A stretch of DNA of 7,283 nucleotides from positions 1 to 7,283 of the forward strand of contig JAOZRJ010000076.1 of NCBI GenBank assembly GCA_029931885.1, given 5' to 3'. The notes beneath the pieces were generated by a model that saw only the letters and a program-made list of their open reading frames with translations, had not been told where the DNA came from and did no database searches. Positions 1,364 to 6,706 of the stretch are shown here, one piece after another (within the stretch, counting starts at the first letter, position 1; the number at the start of each line of letters is the position of its first letter). The DNA is from Candidatus Omnitrophota bacterium. GTDB taxonomy: Bacteria; Omnitrophota; Koll11; Zapsychrales; Aceulaceae. A program made the translations under genes and the position numbers.

Positions 1364-2809
1364 ATGGAAGCAAACATTTTTGTTTCAACCACTCAAATCC
1401 CTAGCGAATACAACATCGTTGACGCTCTTAGTTCCCCAATAGCATTTACACTTGACACCGGCGACACCGGCTATCTATTGACTGATAGTCAACTGTCCAC
1501 ATTGCTTGAAACGGCGAGATTGGAAGTCGGTAACAGAACAGATACAAACTTCAGGGGAATTCGATACTACAATTTAAATACGCAGGGCGTGCCTGTAGAC
1601 GAATCTAGTGTGTTTGAAGGGCTGCCTAAACGGACTGGCAGGAGAAGTAGAGTTAGTGTCATCAAATGGGATGGATTGAAAAAGGATGTCTTCAGGAAAT
1701 TGACTGAAAAAATCCTGGCTCCGGCCATTCCTGATATTCCCATCTGTCTATCTGTACCTCATGGACGTTCTGAATCAGAAGCTCAATTATACAAAAAAGC
1801 TGGTCATTTCAATATTTTGGTTTGGTCGGGTTTTAAAAACTCTAAGTTAGATCATTCCAGCACGAAAATTTGGGACATACGGGTTGATTGTTCGGACAGT
1901 CCTTTCGTTTGTTCGGGTGAGGGAATCCACCCAATCATGGACGGCGAATATTGTGTGGCAGAAGTTTTTGAAGATACTCTCTACATTCATCATGATTTAG
2001 TTCATCATGGAACTGATAGGGAATTCATGATCTTCAGAAAAATTCTGGAAGAGACTGCAAACATTCTCAAGAATCCTGAGTTGATTCTGGCAGCGCGAGA
2101 AGATCGGATTCGTCGAAACGTGAAATACTACGTAGACCTTTGTCACAAAGGATCGGCCGATAAGATCAAACAGTTGCAACGCGAACTGCGGGATGCGCAG
2201 AGTAAAGTTGATGAATATAAGCAATTGTTTATTCAACAACTTCGAAATCAAGACCGTCTCAATGCTGAAATTCCCGCCCTTGAGAACTTAACAGAGGGTG
2301 CACGGGATCAATTCGCGAAAGACTATCAACGGCTCTGTGAGTATCGAGATGTCACTGATATTAAAGTCTATGAGAACGCAATAGACATTTACACCGATCA
2401 TTTGTATTGTGTTGATGGCCGATCTGGACTAACTCACTGGATGGGACGTTTCAGAATCCACATTGACGCAAGAGGTCGTAACGGGGCGGTACTTTGGAAA
2501 AACTTGGATTTCGTCATCCGCGGTTATGAGAGTGGGATGCAAGCTCCCCATGTGTTTAATCGTGGATCTGCTTGCCTGGGTTCACTTGAAGAAGTGATTC
2601 CACAATACTTAGCCAAATGGGACTTTGCAACGTTGACTCAATTGGCAATCAGTTTCGTTCAGTCTGTAAACACTGATGATGTTGCTGGCTCGAAAGTGAA
2701 TCGTTGGCCAATTGCAGAATGTAGTTTTGAAGCTGCCAGAGAACAAGGGATTAACCCAGAGCAACACAATAAGAAGTATATATCAAAACCTTCAGGCGGA
2801 AACGGATAA
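1364..2809 (+). CDS. E2-like (ubiquitin-conjugating enzyme fold) protein with a long N-terminal extension
   Basis: The protein has 481 residues. About residues 345-450 resemble an E2 core: beta-strand segments (GRFRIHID, VLWKNLDFVI), then A-P-H-V-F-N-R-G-S-A-C-L-G-S (395-407), the counterpart of the eukaryotic HPN...G-x-x-C-L stretch, with Cys404 as the predicted thioester cysteine. A helix follows (W419-D-F-A-T-L-T-Q-L-A-I-S-F-V-Q-S-V) like the E2 helix after the active site. The E2 Asn is not present; the HPN triad reads A-P-H. Residues 263-325 are heptad-like and charged, probably a coiled coil. Residues 1-260 are not recognised; they are rich in His, Cys and acidic residues (IHHDLVHH at 208-215) and could be a target-binding or E3-like part. 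GAGAG at 1351-1355 sits 8 bases before the ATG. The stop overlaps the JAB start (TAATG). The C-terminus ends S-G-G-N-G. Confidence 0.72.
   Translation: MEANIFVSTTQIPSEYNIVDALSSPIAFTLDTGDTGYLLTDSQLSTLLETARLEVGNRTDTNFRGIRYYNLNTQGVPVDESSVFEGLPKRTGRRSRVSVIKWDGLKKDVFRKLTEKILAPAIPDIPICLSVPHGRSESEAQLYKKAGHFNILVWSGFKNSKLDHSSTKIWDIRVDCSDSPFVCSGEGIHPIMDGEYCVAEVFEDTLYIHHDLVHHGTDREFMIFRKILEETANILKNPELILAAREDRIRRNVKYYVDLCHKGSADKIKQLQRELRDAQSKVDEYKQLFIQQLRNQDRLNAEIPALENLTEGARDQFAKDYQRLCEYRDVTDIKVYENAIDIYTDHLYCVDGRSGLTHWMGRFRIHIDARGRNGAVLWKNLDFVIRGYESGMQAPHVFNRGSACLGSLEEVIPQYLAKWDFATLTQLAISFVQSVNTDDVAGSKVNRWPIAECSFEAAREQGINPEQHNKKYISKPSGGNG
1454..1471 (+). repeat. Tandem 9-base repeat in the E2-like gene
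   Basis: GACACCGGC occurs twice in a row (1454-1462 and 1463-1471) and encodes Asp-Thr-Gly twice (residues 31-36). It is a small in-frame duplication that keeps the frame; a site of length variation between relatives is possible. Confidence 0.6.
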
Positions 2810-4071
2810 TGTCAATTGATACAAGTAAAACATGGATTGGCCGCTGGGGCGGCCAGTTTCAGTCAAAAACAACAGAGGAAAAAACTGTGAGCAATTCTAA
2901 AATGTTTCATCCTAAGAACAGAAGTGATGAACCTGAAGTCAGTCAAATTGACAAAACTGTAGTGCCTGTCATTCGTGTGTCACGACAAGCATTGCACAAG
3001 ATGTTTTTGTATGTTAAAATTGGCACAAAGGAAGTTGGTTGGATGGGCACTCTCCTTGATAACAGGGAAGAAGACGGCGAGTTTTATTTAAAGGACGTTT
3101 TCTTAGCTGAACAGGAAGTTACATCCGTTCAAACGAATCTTACAACTGATGGCGTCGCAGGAATGATGAACGAATTGATGTTGCGACCAGACGCGATGGA
3201 GATCTGTAACAATTTAAAATTTTGGGGACATTCTCATGTCAATATGGGCGTGGGCCCTAGTGGTCAGGATGAAGACACAGTGGTCGATTTACGTGGTGAA
3301 ACAACTGATTATTTCCTGCGGGGAATTTTCAATAAACGCGGCGAAGTAAAATTCACATTGTTTCTGTATGATGAAAACATTAAAATCGATGACTGTAAAT
3401 GGTACTCTGAAGACGAAGTGCCGGATGAACTTGAAGCAAGTATCCAGAAAGAGTTTGATGAAAAAGTCACCGAATCGACTTTTACGCATCAAGATTGGAA
3501 CACTTACGGTGGCGCTTACGGCAACACTTACGGACACGTTGAACGTGCTAAAGATTTCACCGAGCGGTCTAACGCAACTGGTTATTGGAATGACGGGCAG
3601 TGGATATCCTACGCACGGAATCGGGCATACGATCCTTCTGTCAAATTGAGGCCGTTACGTCGAAAGTATAATCACACAACTAAAGAGTGGGAAGACATTG
3701 ATGGAAACATCATCGAGTCTACTGGACACTTTGGTTATGTGAATGGCATTTATCGGGAACTGACTGTTGAAGAGTTGACTAAAGTCTGTGAGGATCAATC
3801 ATCTGCAGACGACGCAGAAATGGAAGAGTTGAATCAAGAAATTGAAGATCTTCTGGATGACATCGATATCTCTGAAATTCCAGACGACGAGTTGGAAGAG
3901 TTGTCCGCAGATGAAGATGAATTTCTTTTGTTTCTTAATTTGAAGTATTCTCTGGAAGCAGACGGCGACCCTGAAACACTCAACATATTGAATGAACGGA
4001 TTCAAGAATCTGACGGCACTATCAGTACTGATGACATCATAGATACCGATGACATCTGGAAGGACAACTGA
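2809..4071 (+). CDS. JAB/JAMM metalloprotease (deubiquitinase-like), long form
   Basis: The protein has 420 residues. The JAMM motif H-S-H-x7-S-x2-D is complete: His141, His143, Ser151, Asp154, with Glu75 in the KEVGWMG strand as the likely general base. Residues 48-200 form the JAB domain. JAB enzymes of this type cleave isopeptide or peptide bonds after ubiquitin-like modifiers, either maturing the precursor or removing it from targets, with Zn2+ held by the two His and the Asp. The N-terminal 47 residues are polar and probably disordered. After the domain come a Tyr-Gly rich patch (TYGGAYGNTYG, 232-242), a Trp/Tyr-rich segment (260-315) and a strongly acidic tail (about 330-420). The start overlaps the upstream stop as TAATG, implying translational coupling with the E2-like gene. 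A second in-frame start, GTG at 2887 after AGAGGA, would drop 26 residues without touching the JAB domain. It is longer than typical single-domain bacterial JAB proteins. Confidence 0.9.
   Translation: MSIDTSKTWIGRWGGQFQSKTTEEKTVSNSKMFHPKNRSDEPEVSQIDKTVVPVIRVSRQALHKMFLYVKIGTKEVGWMGTLLDNREEDGEFYLKDVFLAEQEVTSVQTNLTTDGVAGMMNELMLRPDAMEICNNLKFWGHSHVNMGVGPSGQDEDTVVDLRGETTDYFLRGIFNKRGEVKFTLFLYDENIKIDDCKWYSEDEVPDELEASIQKEFDEKVTESTFTHQDWNTYGGAYGNTYGHVERAKDFTERSNATGYWNDGQWISYARNRAYDPSVKLRPLRRKYNHTTKEWEDIDGNIIESTGHFGYVNGIYRELTVEELTKVCEDQSSADDAEMEELNQEIEDLLDDIDISEIPDDELEELSADEDEFLLFLNLKYSLEADGDPETLNILNERIQESDGTISTDDIIDTDDIWKDN
2836..2857 (+). promoter_or_regulatory. GC-rich hairpin early in the JAB coding region
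   Basis: TGGCCGC (2838-2844) pairs perfectly with GCGGCCA (2849-2855) around a TGGG tetraloop. Two more pairs below (2836-2837 with 2856-2857, one G-U) make 9 bp. It begins 27 bases after the ATG, codons 10-16, and stands out in AT-leaning sequence. It could slow or gate translation from the first start; effect not known. Confidence 0.4.
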
Positions 4072-4094
4072 TTTTAATTTTAATTCATTTTTTT

Positions 4095-4158
4095 GTTGAC
4101 ACAATGGTTTCTTTTGTGTAGACTGATTTTATATTGAGTCGCAAAAGAAATCAAAAAC
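4095..4158 (+). repeat. Promoter-leader repeat, copy 2
   Basis: This is the partner of 1279-1346. It keeps GTTGACA, AATGG, TGTAGACTGATT, TATATTGA, GTC and AAAAGAA...AAAAAC, with a 1-base gap near the -10 region and a 2-base gap in the leader. The strong terminator stem of copy 1 is not conserved here. Confidence 0.7.
4096..4124 (+). promoter_or_regulatory. Sigma-70-type promoter for the E1-like gene
   Basis: TTGACA (4096-4101), 17 bases, then TAGACT (4119-4124): identical hexamers and spacing to the promoter at 1280-1308. A leader of roughly 40 bases leads to GGAG at 4164-4167 and the ATG at 4174. I see no convincing terminator between the JAB stop at 4071 and this promoter, so readthrough from JAB into the E1-like gene is likely. 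Confidence 0.65.
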
Positions 4159-4173
4159 ATTTCGGAGCAACGA

Positions 4174-4839
4174 ATGATTAATCCAACACGACATCTTGAG
4201 TATTTCAAGCCGGTTGAGTTCGCCAACAAACGGATTGACATCATCGGGGTTGGAGCAACTGGTTCTAAGATCGCTATGGAACTGGCCAAGCTCGGCATTA
4301 AGAACATCCACATATGGGATGATGACGTTATAGAAGGCCACAATCTCGCAAACCAACACTTTATTGAATCTGACATAGGAGAACTAAAAGTATCCGCCTT
4401 GGCACAGCACATCGTTGACGCAACAGGATGTATCGTAACACAACATCCCTGTAGAGTCGAAGGTGGAGAGCCTTTAGGCGCTTACGTGTTCAACTTGGTT
4501 GATTCTATGAAGGATCGGAAAGCGATTTGGGAAGGCTCAATCAAATTGAAGCCTATGACAAAAGTGATGTTTGAAAGTCGCATGGGCGGAAACAACGGCA
4601 GGATATACACTGTCAACCCTCTGGAGATGAAGGATATCGAAGGATGGGAAGGGACGTTGTATGAAGATGAAGAAGCGCCCGTCAGCGCTTGTGGAGCCAG
4701 CTCGACTGTCGGAGCTACTGGTGATTTGATCACTGGTTTTATTGTGTGGAATTTCATGAGACATGTTTCGAATTGTAAAATATCTAACGAAATTATTTTT
4801 TCAATTGAACCGATGATGTTGTTGGAGCAAAATTTTTAA
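4174..4839 (+). CDS. ThiF/E1-like adenylating enzyme
   Basis: The protein has 221 residues, a minimal ThiF/MoeB/E1-type Rossmann adenylation domain. It shows the nucleotide loop G-V-G-A-T-G-S (25-31) after a short strand, the acidic end of strand 2 (WDDD, 48-51), the N-x-x-N-Q segment (N57, N60, Q61), Lys72 in GELKVSAL, and Asp110 where E1 enzymes hold Mg-ATP. A-P-V-S-A-C-G-A-S-S-T-V-G-A-T-G (168-183) carries Cys173, a candidate catalytic cysteine. The family activates the C-terminal Gly of a ubiquitin-like or ThiS-like protein as an acyl-adenylate; ThiF/MoeB relatives do this for sulfur transfer, E1s for conjugation. The neighbouring E2-like and JAB genes favour conjugation. GGAG lies 6 bases upstream of the ATG. 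There is no second adenylation domain and no ubiquitin-fold domain. Its last 47 bases overlap the 3' end of the opposite-strand endonuclease. Confidence 0.9.
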   Translation: MINPTRHLEYFKPVEFANKRIDIIGVGATGSKIAMELAKLGIKNIHIWDDDVIEGHNLANQHFIESDIGELKVSALAQHIVDATGCIVTQHPCRVEGGEPLGAYVFNLVDSMKDRKAIWEGSIKLKPMTKVMFESRMGGNNGRIYTVNPLEMKDIEGWEGTLYEDEEAPVSACGASSTVGATGDLITGFIVWNFMRHVSNCKISNEIIFSIEPMMLLEQNF

Positions 4840-5503
4840 ATTTGCAGTTATTGAAATGATATCGTTTCATGTTGGGGCCCCCACCTTTTTTTGAACAATA
4901 AGGGCATGTAATGATATCATATTTTTTATTTTTGTTCCAAGCCGGCCGTGTATTATTTCTTTTGGTTTCACTAATTTTATTTCGTGTAACTTCAGTAACG
5001 ATATGGCCGAGATTGGCTTTTGATATAAGTGATTTTTGTTCGTCGGACATTGATTTATTATAATTTGGATTGCCGGTTTTTAACATTCTAAGACTTTGTT
5101 TTTCATTTTGAATTTTAGTTCGTTTTTTGCCGGTGTTCGATTGACTAATTTTAGCATTCATGTCAACGGAATTTTTATAACCAATTCTTGTTGCACCGCC
5201 AATACCACCCGGCGTTAAATTATAGTAAATATCGTCATTGATCGCATCAAATTTATCAATGTAATAAATTTCAGATTCGTTTAAATCATTTTTATTGTAA
5301 CACCATTTAATTATTTCAATCTGAAAATTAAATGAACCGTATTTTTTCAAAGCTTTTTTTAATAATATCCCAGAACCATAATAAGATTTGACAAAATACG
5401 TAGAAGTTTTTTGACCTATATATTTTTTCTGATTGGTCAAATTGGTTGTTAGATATACGTAGCCGTATTTTGGGATTTTCGGCAGATAAATATTGTTAGA
5501 CAT
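4793..5503 (-). CDS. Free-standing GIY-YIG homing endonuclease with NUMOD3 repeats and a zinc finger
   Basis: The protein has 236 residues. The N-terminal GIY-YIG nuclease shows Y-V-Y (15-17) and Y-I-G (28-30), the S-Y-Y-G-S-G-x-L-L-K-K-A segment typical of phage members (40-51), Glu78 (the metal-binding Glu) and an Asn at 95. Two NUMOD3-like DNA-binding segments follow (about 116-130 and 143-182). The C-terminal C200-x2-C203...H216-x3-C220 is a zinc-finger-type motif. Such genes are selfish elements that cut cognate alleles lacking them. GGAG lies 6 bases before the ATG. It runs against all neighbours and is richer in A+T, Lys and Asn than they are, suggesting separate ancestry. Residues 222-236 overlap the antisense of the E1-like 3' end, just past the last zinc ligand, so the functional part ends at the gene border. 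Confidence 0.9.
   Translation of the reverse strand: MSNNIYLPKIPKYGYVYLTTNLTNQKKYIGQKTSTYFVKSYYGSGILLKKALKKYGSFNFQIEIIKWCYNKNDLNESEIYYIDKFDAINDDIYYNLTPGGIGGATRIGYKNSVDMNAKISQSNTGKKRTKIQNEKQSLRMLKTGNPNYNKSMSDEQKSLISKANLGHIVTEVTRNKISETKRNNTRPAWNKNKKYDIITCPYCSKKGGGPNMKRYHFNNCKFKNFAPTTSSVQLKK
4852..4892 (+). terminator. Possible intrinsic terminator after the E1-like gene
   Basis: A 7-bp stem (TGAAATG with CGTTTCA, 4852-4869, one wobble pair) is followed by a short GC-rich TGGG/CCCA hairpin (4873-4883) and a run of seven T (4886-4892). It lies 13-53 bases past the E1-like stop and inside the antisense strand of the endonuclease zinc-finger codons. The GC stem is short (4 bp, 3-base loop), so this is tentative. 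Confidence 0.3.
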
Positions 5504-5536
5504 TTCCTACTCCATTAGGATACTGTTTAGAGGTTT

Positions 5537-5557
5537 GGCGAAGTTTTGAGCTTCGTC
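5537..5557 (-). promoter_or_regulatory. Hairpin in the leader of the homing endonuclease
   Basis: GGCGAAG (5537-5543) pairs with CTTCGTC (5551-5557) with one wobble pair. On the - strand it lies about 35 bases before the endonuclease ATG. T4-type homing endonuclease genes often carry leader hairpins that limit early translation; here that is only an analogy, and the hairpin does not visibly cover the GGAG. Confidence 0.35.
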
Positions 5558-5574
5558 AGATCTTGTTACATATG

Positions 5575-5582
5575 TATTTATC
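5575..5582 (-). promoter_or_regulatory. Possible T4-late-like promoter for the endonuclease
   Basis: The - strand reads GATAAATA, 7/8 to the T4 late element TATAAATA, 71 bases upstream of the endonuclease ATG. Such short AT-rich matches arise easily by chance, and no other late-type site was seen in the window. Confidence 0.2.
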
Positions 5583-5618
5583 ATTTAAATAAAATCCTAT
5601 TCAAAATAACAAAAGGGG

Positions 5619-5647
5619 TTGACAAAGTGGCCTTTTTTTGTTATAAT
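5619..5647 (+). promoter_or_regulatory. Consensus extended -10 promoter for the ubiquitin-like gene
   Basis: TTGACA (5619-5624) and TATAAT (5642-5647) are both perfect with 17-base spacing, and TG at 5639-5640 adds an extended -10. This is the best promoter in the window. It sits in an AAAAGG...CCTTTTTTT context (5611-5639) that could also form a weak terminator hairpin, echoing the terminator/promoter overlap at 1265-1308. Transcription would start near 5654, leaving a leader of about 75 bases. Confidence 0.88.
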
Positions 5648-5664
5648 GGTATTATAATTTAAAC

Positions 5665-5692
5665 GTTGAAAAACCAATTCCGGTTTTGAAAC
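5665..5692 (+). promoter_or_regulatory. 5' leader hairpin of the ubiquitin-like mRNA
   Basis: AAAACC (5670-5675) pairs with GGTTTT (5682-5687) around a 6-base loop. Below it, tandem G-A/A-G mismatches and GTT/AAC (5665-5667 with 5690-5692) extend the stem. It begins about 10 bases after the predicted transcription start and leaves the AAGG at 5718-5721 free, which fits a 5'-stabilising role. Confidence 0.4.
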
Positions 5693-5729
5693 TTTCGTAA
5701 TTTTTTAAATCCCTAACAAGGTAAATACA

Positions 5730-6002
5730 ATGTCTGAAGAAACTCAAGAAGTAGCAGTAGAAGCAACTGAAGAAACCCCTGAAGTACAGGGCCCTGTAGT
5801 TCGTGTAGCACGTGTAACTGAAGGGATGCAAGAAGTTCCTTTCACCCCTGGCATGTCTGTATCTCAAGCGATTGAACTTGCTGGTTACGTCGTGGGCGGC
5901 GAAGATCAAGTCCGGCTCAATAATGAACTTGTGTCTGATCTGGACACCACCGTTCCCGAAGACGGAACTATCTTGATCCTTCAAAAGATTACTGGTAACT
6001 AG
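5730..6002 (+). CDS. Ubiquitin-like/ThiS-MoaD-like beta-grasp modifier
   Basis: The protein has 90 residues. An acidic tail (1-20, Glu-rich, probably disordered) precedes a beta-grasp-like core (21-89): a strand pair VVRVARV...QEVPFTP, the G-M-S-V-S-Q-A-I-E-L-A-G helix (41-52), V-R-L-N-N-E (61-66), D-L-D-T-T-V-P-E-D-G (70-79) and the final strand T-I-L-I-L-Q-K-I-T-G-N. This order matches ThiS/MoaD (G-x-T-V-x-x-A-L, V-R-V-N-G-E, D-T-x-L-x-D-G-D, then the C-terminal strand). The C-terminus is Thr-Gly-Asn, not Gly-Gly, so either Asn90 is trimmed to expose Gly89 or a single Gly suffices. Lys86 is the only lysine. AAGG lies 8 bases before the ATG. It is the probable substrate of the E1-like enzyme, and its own strong promoter suggests it is made in excess of the enzymes. 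A sulfur-carrier role is the main alternative. Confidence 0.8.
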   Translation: MSEETQEVAVEATEETPEVQGPVVRVARVTEGMQEVPFTPGMSVSQAIELAGYVVGGEDQVRLNNELVSDLDTTVPEDGTILILQKITGN

Positions 6003-6241: not shown

Positions 6242-6269
6242 TTGACAAACTTGGTAGGACCTGTATAAT
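6242..6269 (+). promoter_or_regulatory. Consensus sigma-70 promoter for the 136-residue gene
   Basis: TTGACA (6242-6247) and TATAAT (6264-6269) are both perfect, with 16-base spacing. It follows a run of seven T (6233-6239), a third instance in the window of a T-run immediately upstream of or within a promoter. The leader would be about 20 bases before the ATG at 6296. Confidence 0.85.
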
Positions 6270-6295: not shown

Positions 6296-6706
6296 ATGGA
6301 AGTCTCAACTGACCCCGATGTTTTAGAACAACTGATTTCAAATAGACGAACGACCCTTGATCACATCCTTTGTTTAGGGTATGGATTTCAACGTCCATCT
6401 ATCAACAAATGGACTAGAAACAATGGTAGTTCTTATGTAGCTGAAATCAATCCCGATTCAAGAGTCTTGGGCTTATCACACAATGACGAAGAAAGAACGG
6501 TAACAGACAATCTCGCTATTGATACACACGCCCCCGAATTCTTTAAGAAACTACGGGAGTTCATGTTTAAAACAAAATTTCATTTGATTGATCACAACTC
6601 TAAATCAATTTCGACGATGAAGAGATATAAAAAATTTAGTTTGGCCAATTTAGGAAATTTCATTGATTGTGGAATTTTTAAATATTTGTTATGGCGACGG
6701 TCCTAA
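6296..6706 (+). CDS. Unknown phage protein, 136 residues
   Basis: I do not recognise this protein. It is basic overall, with no signal peptide or membrane segment. The N-terminal part (1-30) looks helical, the middle (30-75) polar with N-W/T/G-rich turns, and the end (85-136) Lys/Phe-rich, finishing L-L-W-R-R-S. It contains single Cys residues at 26 and 125 and no metal-binding pattern. The gene has its own consensus promoter and a very short leader; the ribosome site is weak (GAG near 6284-6288). It is followed after 18 bases by the Lys-rich gene, so the two probably share a transcript. A small early phage protein acting on the host would fit the promoter and size, but this is a guess. Confidence 0.75.
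   Translation: MEVSTDPDVLEQLISNRRTTLDHILCLGYGFQRPSINKWTRNNGSSYVAEINPDSRVLGLSHNDEERTVTDNLAIDTHAPEFFKKLREFMFKTKFHLIDHNSKSISTMKRYKKFSLANLGNFIDCGIFKYLLWRRS

Follow-up and report, generated by a model that had tools for sequence, protein, structure and literature searches.

In bacteria, ubiquitin-like conjugation is known above all from antiphage defence. In the Bil operons, a bacterial antiphage system, a ubiquitin-like protein (Ubl; BilA), an E2 (BilB), a JAB protease (BilC), and an E1 (BilD) are encoded together, as described in the sections of PMC11354881 consulted. According to the same sections (PMC11354881), BilD contains an inactive and an active adenylation domain together with a Cys domain, BilB carries a CEHH motif in which His comes after Cys, and BilA has two Ubl domains and a reactive C-terminal Gly. 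Here we analyze a stretch of 7,283 nucleotides (contig JAOZRJ010000076.1; the whole stretch is called the window), which probably derives from a virus of bacteria. The window holds a complete gene set for ubiquitin-like tagging, consisting of the tag, an activating enzyme, a transfer enzyme, and a tag-removing protease.

The four pathway genes all lie on the plus strand and encode an E2-like protein (positions 1364-2809), a JAB protease (2809-4071), an E1/ThiF enzyme (4174-4839), and the Ubl (5730-6002). An initial annotation had proposed these four parts at these positions, and each of them exists there. As in Bil, the four components are encoded in one locus, here with the Ubl gene set off by a homing endonuclease gene. 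Unlike the two adenylation domains and Cys domain of BilD, the window E1 is one domain of 221 amino acids. In the E2-like protein, the His precedes the Cys, and no His follows C404 at alignment positions that are at least 60% conserved (78 rows). The Ubl is a single domain ending in GN, and the relatives of this gene set are found mainly in phages. The likeness to Bil noted in the initial annotation thus stands for the four activities, whereas close kinship fails on three features of Bil as described in the consulted sections (E1 architecture, E2 motif, and the end and domain number of the Ubl). The accompanying suggestion of a distinct branch is supported.

These differences bear on the possibility that a Bil-like set carried by a phage provides superinfection exclusion or inter-phage defence by tagging the virions of competitors. 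The four parts are shared with Bil (PMC11354881, sections consulted), and Bil-like systems are said in the discussion of PMC12135933 to hinder phage assembly via tail tagging. However, the E1, E2, and Ubl depart from Bil in the features compared, and the nameable neighbours of related loci are mostly replication or nucleotide genes, though many neighbours are hypothetical. We consider this explanation improbable.

Conservation was assessed with sets gathered by iterative hidden Markov model (HMM) searches from 59 loci plus 20 database proteins, with duplicates removed, distinct sequences counted, and residues numbered as in the window. The E2-like protein (481 amino acids) was characterized by structure modelling, conservation, and hhalign. 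It comprises an N-terminal alpha/beta region (residues 1-235), a long helix or coiled coil (238-307), and a C-terminal UBC-like region (about 311-481). Pfam E2 families matched none of 61 family members at E 0.01. Searched against PDB sequences, a profile of the family returned 53 matches with E values of up to 10, nearly all of them on the coiled coil and none to an E2, and a fold comparison was therefore needed. Residues 311-481 (approximate bounds) model as a UBC fold, in which the predicted catalytic Cys would follow an HPN-like motif (P395-H396, then C404-L-G). Among 72 distinct sequences, H396 is invariant, P395 is kept in 69, C404 and G406 in 70 each, and N436 and D439 in 64 each. Both exceptions at C404 are Val and occur in database protein P0020 and in the second gene of an adjacent E2 pair in locus L004. 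P0002 and P0003 are E2 relatives with identities of 65% and 53%. The expectation of an E2 fold in the 345-450 region is therefore consistent with both the model and the retention of C404 (70/72), and the description of an unusual E2 fusion, an E2 domain joined to an unusual N-terminal part, also holds.

Window-branch and gut-phage members of this E2 family are homologous (hhalign probability 97.5, E 6.3e-12), and the alignment to an 892-amino-acid Xanthomonas phage protein over residues 319-451 reached E 5.7e-4 but a probability of only 29.6. Searches of phage records with the window E2, and likewise with the E2 proteins of two relatives, gave no tblastn match. Two observations on individual members are added here. 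The 892-amino-acid protein (L059:3238-5916, Xanthomonas phage PhiXhv-16) carries HPH...GSLCLG, and its very Cys-rich C-terminal tail, judged by eye, could be a zinc-binding, RING-like part. The adjacent E2 genes of L004 (3021-4628 and 4629-5990), with Cys in the first and Val in the second, recall the pairs of Ubc13 and an inactive variant in eukaryotes.

The JAB/JAMM metalloprotease-like protein (420 amino acids, with a long and acidic C-terminal tail) is encoded directly downstream, its start codon sharing one base with the E2 stop codon. Its zinc site has the form E...H-x-H...S-x-x-D (E75, H141-S-H143, S151-x-x-D154); H141, H143, S151, and D154 are kept in 54/54 distinct sequences and E75 in 53/54. 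A profile built from four sequences matches Rpn11 at 1.3e-7 and, weakly, JAMM1.

The E1/ThiF-like adenylating enzyme matches Pfam ThiF (7.3e-18) and phrog_15670 (8.2e-19). Its adenylation domain, a single ThiF stretch at residues 18-202, carries both GxGxxG and a Cys, with key residues G25xG27xxG30, D49, D51, K72, D110, R136, and C173. The last of these is present in 49 of 51 distinct frames, the exceptions being a K in L003 and a gap in half of a split frame. In one relative (L001:3165-3834) the E1 gene spans two overlapping frames, through either a frameshift or a sequencing error. The enzyme falls below the cut-off of the PRTRC ThiF model TIGR03736 (36 bits versus 144.75) and of two NCBIfam ThiF models (61.2 versus 159 and 42.8 versus 275.25), and exact E1 peptide patterns found no match in IMG/VR. 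Its PDB matches are Cap2 (the nearest, at 3.7e-5), MccB, UBA3, Uba4, and Uba1, and among PADLOC models it scores best with those for E1-E2 proteins. The resemblance to Cap2 and to these models would be expected if the JAB and a decoy Ubl were a counter-defence that strips or saturates host Ubl or CBASS (cyclic oligonucleotide-based antiphage signaling system; Cap2/Cap3) conjugation. We regard counter-defence as very unlikely, as a complete E1-E2-Ubl set with kept catalytic residues exceeds what a decoy or a protease would need.

The initial annotation had raised unlinked genes in related phages as a point against a single system. To find relatives, a pattern from the JAB motif alone was run against IMG/VR, and the 95 stretches recovered yielded 55 confirmed relatives (four are repeats of another locus, recognised by an identical JAB, and L001 and L011 are one contig). 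Beside the JAB gene, an E2 was found in 54/55 viral loci and an E1 in 52/55; in the four deficient loci (L009, L012, L029, and L039) the contig ends at or just after JAB. The genes thus adjoin wherever the contig allows, with a median gap of -8 nucleotides from E2 to JAB and 3 nucleotides from JAB to E1, although up to 1.3 kb separates JAB and E1 in some loci. L006 and L030 have the opposite gene order, with the genes still together. The same pattern, applied to one genome for each of 84,980 bacterial and archaeal species, returned 22 stretches and 12 confirmed loci, with an E1 beside the JAB in 12/12 and an E2 in 11/12. Eleven of these are titled as metagenome-assembled genomes and one is a "Clostridium sp. 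CAG:678" scaffold. Because 55 loci were found in viral contigs compared to 12 in the species genomes, the gene set belongs mainly to viruses. It is a large linked family that is mainly phage-borne, and the phage association that had been proposed is borne out by the related viral loci.

Among 50,697 phage records, the whole window gave no megablast match and the E1 gave a tblastn match in 75. A human gut phage (MT835544) carries all four genes. A 229-kb Xanthomonas phage encodes a Ubl-like protein, an E2-like protein, and an E1, and no JAB was recognised in it. A Flavobacterium psychrophilum phage, a Kehishuvirus, and bajarodcaudo virus 1 carry JAB and E1, with a middle protein that is unmatched by the window E2 family; the Flavobacterium phage gene, of about 420 codons, was set aside as a homologous E2 since hhalign gave no match. 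The annotated phage genes met in this analysis are mostly named along the lines of "thiamine biosynthesis protein" or "hypothetical protein." In the gut phage MT835544 (L002:1928-15506), we also noticed by eye eleven small related-looking proteins of 81-107 amino acids ending in C-x-C-x-SLL.

Two branches can be told apart. The environmental branch consists of the window, L001, L004-L007, L009, L030, L062-L065, and repeats. The gut branch, assigned by the presence of a conserved partner of about 125 amino acids or of a reverse transcriptase, accounts for 54 of 74 loci, and gut-phage relatives have the order Ubl-E2-JAB-E1.

The putative modifier (90 amino acids) has an acidic tail at residues 1-21, a beta-grasp region at about 22-88, and the C terminus KITGN. 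Structure prediction gives a beta-grasp fold, as had been anticipated, and the model is about equally close to SAMP1, MoaD, ThiS, TtuB, and ubiquitin. Among PDB sequences the Ubl profile matches SAMP2 best (JAMM1-SAMP2 entry 5lda), though weakly (E 0.0054). A C-terminal Gly-Gly is absent, the window Ubl ending in TGN; its Gly-Asn end has a mostly Asn-Ala counterpart in the relatives. A profile search returned 1,556 protein clusters. In the 120 best-scoring clusters, a selection biased toward the consensus, the motif K-x-x-[NSG]-[AG] closes the sequence in 119, with 0-3 further residues after it, and GG is absent from the last six positions of all 120. GG near the end does occur in 3 of 48 Ubl rows of the loci examined (L033, L055, and L056, all gut), and the Ubl-like protein of the Xanthomonas phage ends in SGG. 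Environmental-branch Ubls mostly have x-G-N (K-G-A in L006), in some cases with one or nine extra residues, or a further Ubl, after it, and gut-branch ends are of the kind K-A-D-N-A. The constant end is best read, from the sequences, as [G/N/S]-[N/A/G] rather than strictly GN, with an uncertain register between GN and NA tails, which MAFFT aligned differently.

Several environmental Ubls had first been chosen by a G[NG] tail pattern, a possible bias that was checked with a tail-trimmed family HMM. When each locus was left out in turn, this HMM recovered 8/8 Ubls (E 2.5e-4 or better among 641 open reading frames), and in L005 a second Ubl-repeat protein outscored the left-out Ubl. With the full trimmed HMM, L006 and the second protein of L005 were also recovered, each with a KGA end, as was L065, which has an inner QGN. 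No Ubl was found in L064, where the contig stops just after E1.

The minimal ThiF form of the E1 and the similar distance of the Ubl model from sulfur carriers and ubiquitin are what would be expected of a sulfur or small-molecule carrier, in which the ThiF-like enzyme activates a ThiS/MoaD-like protein for modification of tRNA, a cofactor, or a DNA base and the E2-like and JAB proteins are scaffolds. However, sulfur carriers end in Gly-Gly, which the best-scoring Ubl family members lack. Furthermore, ThiG, MoaE, and rhodanese were unrecognised among the eight window genes scanned with Pfam and NCBIfam, and, where the contig extends far enough, the set always includes a linked E2-fold protein with an invariant His and a near-invariant Cys. 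We give the carrier explanation a low probability relative to conjugation of the Ubl to proteins.

Some loci encode Ubl precursors. Tandem Ubls joined at G-N are found in L007/L024 and L009, with two strong HMM domains in each of L007 and L009. Tandem-like proteins also occur in L065 (one strong and two weak HMM domains, with a joint at Q-G-N) and in L005, where the second protein has two weak HMM domains and three repeats by eye. The Ubl of L037, L040, L041, L045, and L058 is fused ahead of the partner of about 125 residues, which elsewhere is a separate neighbouring gene. Tandem and fusion Ubls need a protease and therefore fit the JAB, which we infer cleaves these precursors. The L065 Ubl-repeat protein (7430-8431) has a helical-looking C-terminal extension that by eye resembles a SAP/HeH-type DNA-binding end.

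Of the first 59 loci, 46 encode the conserved partner; in 41 of these it has its own gene upstream of E2 (for example L022:3611-3985, with homologues in other loci), and in five it is fused behind the Ubl. It matches four PHROGs, in each case one member of 30, and no function was assigned on that basis; the partner is possibly a substrate or carrier. A reverse transcriptase gene lies downstream of E1 in 45/54 gut-type loci, compared to 0/20 other loci, and some of the nine gut-type loci without it end near E1. Examples (L013:6199-7302, L014:7834-8961, and L053:7709-8857) carry the retron-like motif PQGTPxSPxLTN and YTRYADD. Pfam RVT_1 matched 9/9 proteins tested, and RT_II-A was the best PADLOC model in 8/8. 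Diversity-generating retroelement reverse transcriptases typically carry SQ in the corresponding motif; that identity was set aside because the gut enzymes have QGxxxSP. In several loci, 200-500 nucleotides separate E1 from the reverse transcriptase gene, and a structured RNA could sit there. An Rfam scan of ten loci gave only tRNAs at the gathering score.

In the window, the 890 nucleotides between E1 and Ubl contain a GIY-YIG homing endonuclease gene on the minus strand (4793-5503) that overlaps the E1 3' end (phrog_314, 3.6e-39; NCBIfam grpIintron_endo, 1.5e-19). Its G+C content is 0.300, compared to 0.451 for E1 and 0.473 for the Ubl gene, and the E1-to-Ubl distance in relatives is 20 (L004), 26 (L005), 23 (L062), or 70 (L007) nucleotides. 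Because the long gap holds an AT-rich antisense endonuclease gene and relatives have only 20-70 nucleotides, the split probably results from mobile insertion of a gene outside the pathway. The E1 C terminus aligns with those of relatives, and thus the enzyme seems unharmed. Given this alignment, and because Rfam matches in the window up to E 1 include no group I intron RNA, we dropped the explanation of an intervening intron.

Promoter-like sites, all known from consensus matches only, precede each unit. Two 58-nucleotide repeats with 83% identity to each other lie on the plus strand before the E2-JAB unit (1255-1312, with TTGACA-17-TAGACT at 1280-1308) and before E1 (4071-4128, with the same hexamers and spacing at 4096-4124). 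Upstream of the Ubl gene is a sigma-70-like site on the plus strand (5619-5647; TTGACA-17-TATAAT with TG before the second hexamer, 12/12 consensus matches), and a second full-consensus site (6242-6269; TTGACA-16-TATAAT) precedes a 136-codon open reading frame at 6296-6706. Single sites prove little because the window contains 29 compared to a shuffled mean of 18.2 (standard deviation 4.9). The earlier proposal of split transcription units is thus compatible with a promoter-like site for each of E2-JAB, E1, and Ubl, but the E1/Ubl split is better explained by the insertion. At 296-1240, the window also encodes a 314-amino-acid protein whose start (MCVIVAV..KNRDR) recalls N-terminal-nucleophile (NRDE-like) hydrolases; it has no Pfam or PDB match up to E 1.

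Genes near the relatives point toward DNA metabolism. Six of ten neighbour proteins in environmental relatives match a PHROG (nucleotidyltransferase, thymidylate synthase, metallophosphoesterase, SbcC-like, helicase, and primase). Among 104 neighbour proteins (best 25 of 80 families), the reverse transcriptase family has 28, helicase families 13, and integrase families two each. Toprim and uracil-DNA glycosylase genes occur in the Flavobacterium phage, primase genes in two further phages, and DNA ligase and topoisomerase genes in the Xanthomonas phage. The lytic lifestyle proposed for the source was not borne out, as no phage lifestyle gene was recognised in the window and integrase families make up two of the 104 relatives' neighbours.

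Because all parts are intact and the E2, E1, and JAB belong to their families, with catalytic residues kept across deep divergence, the cassette likely constitutes a self-contained, reversible phage pathway that conjugates a Ubl to proteins. In such a pathway, the JAB would trim or separate Ubl precursors and later take the tag off. The small ThiF-type E1 would adenylate the Ubl C terminus (-Gly-Asn or a trimmed form) and hand the Ubl on to the E2 at Cys404, possibly by way of Cys173. In place of a separate ligase, the E2 may use its N-terminal domain and long coiled coil to choose and position targets. Given the replication and nucleotide genes near relatives, the probable targets are DNA-metabolism proteins of the phage or the host rather than virions, and the tag would probably act early or midway through infection. 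A broader proposal, which we advance tentatively, is that this is a phage-specific branch across many phage groups that uses non-diglycine activation (-Gly-Asn/-Asn-Ala) and polyubiquitin-like or fusion precursors cut by the JAB, and that may serve DNA replication, with a gut branch coupled to the partner protein and a retron-like reverse transcriptase.

Beyond Bil, several described systems share parts of this arrangement. The operons in rows 6a-6e of Iyer et al. 2006 (PMC1779556, in the sections consulted) have the same functions, and 6e also has tandem Ubls. They differ in that 6a and 6c have the E2 fused to E1 (in 6a also to JAB), the 6d E2 is without the classical His, and the 6e E2 is called inactive (PMC1779556). 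The phage case in those sections of PMC1779556 is row 5, the TAPI-TAPK pair of lambda/T1 tail assembly, a Ubl with a JAB. Marks of that pair are a tail-module location and a JAB with NlpC/P60. The window JAB has no NlpC/P60 match, and the named neighbours of its relatives are of replication type; the window itself is too short to place. Type II CBASS Cap2/Cap3 is similar in that Cap2 is the nearest PDB match of the window E1. Cap2 is an E2-E1 fusion. The window instead has separate E1 and E2 genes and a separate Ubl gene, and no cGAS-like cyclase was recognised in it. Archaeal SAMP2-JAMM1-UbaA likewise combines a Ubl, a JAMM protease, and a single E1, though the profile matches to SAMP2 and JAMM1 are weak. 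That system is not known to include an E2, and SAMPs end in Gly-Gly. Flavobacterium and crAss-like Bacteroides phages carry "Thiamine biosynthesis protein" (ThiF) genes for a similar E1. In two of these phages examined closely, E1 is preceded by a gene with a Ubl-like N terminus (by eye), a gene for about 420-440 amino acids, and JAB; unlike the window protein, the product of the middle gene is unmatched by the window E2 family (HMM, and hhalign for FpV4).

No report of a phage-borne E1-E2-JAB-Ubl set was found among the best-ranked papers listed from the open-licence literature, with subscription papers and preprints outside this scope, and a term search of the main text of PMC7886860 on crAss-like phages gave zero occurrences of ubiquitin, JAB, and ThiF. 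As judged from that literature, the chemistry is known, but the phage branch appears to be undescribed, as do its E2 family, tail, and precursors. If our reading is correct, phages run their own protein-tagging pathway, with an E2 family unmatched by Pfam E2 models and a tail that in most cases departs from the Gly-Gly rule. This would open to direct test the role of the tag during infection and the extent to which ubiquitin activation requires glycine. Furthermore, the tandem and fusion precursors recall the polyubiquitin and ubiquitin-fusion genes of eukaryotes, and thus bear on the origin of the ubiquitin system.

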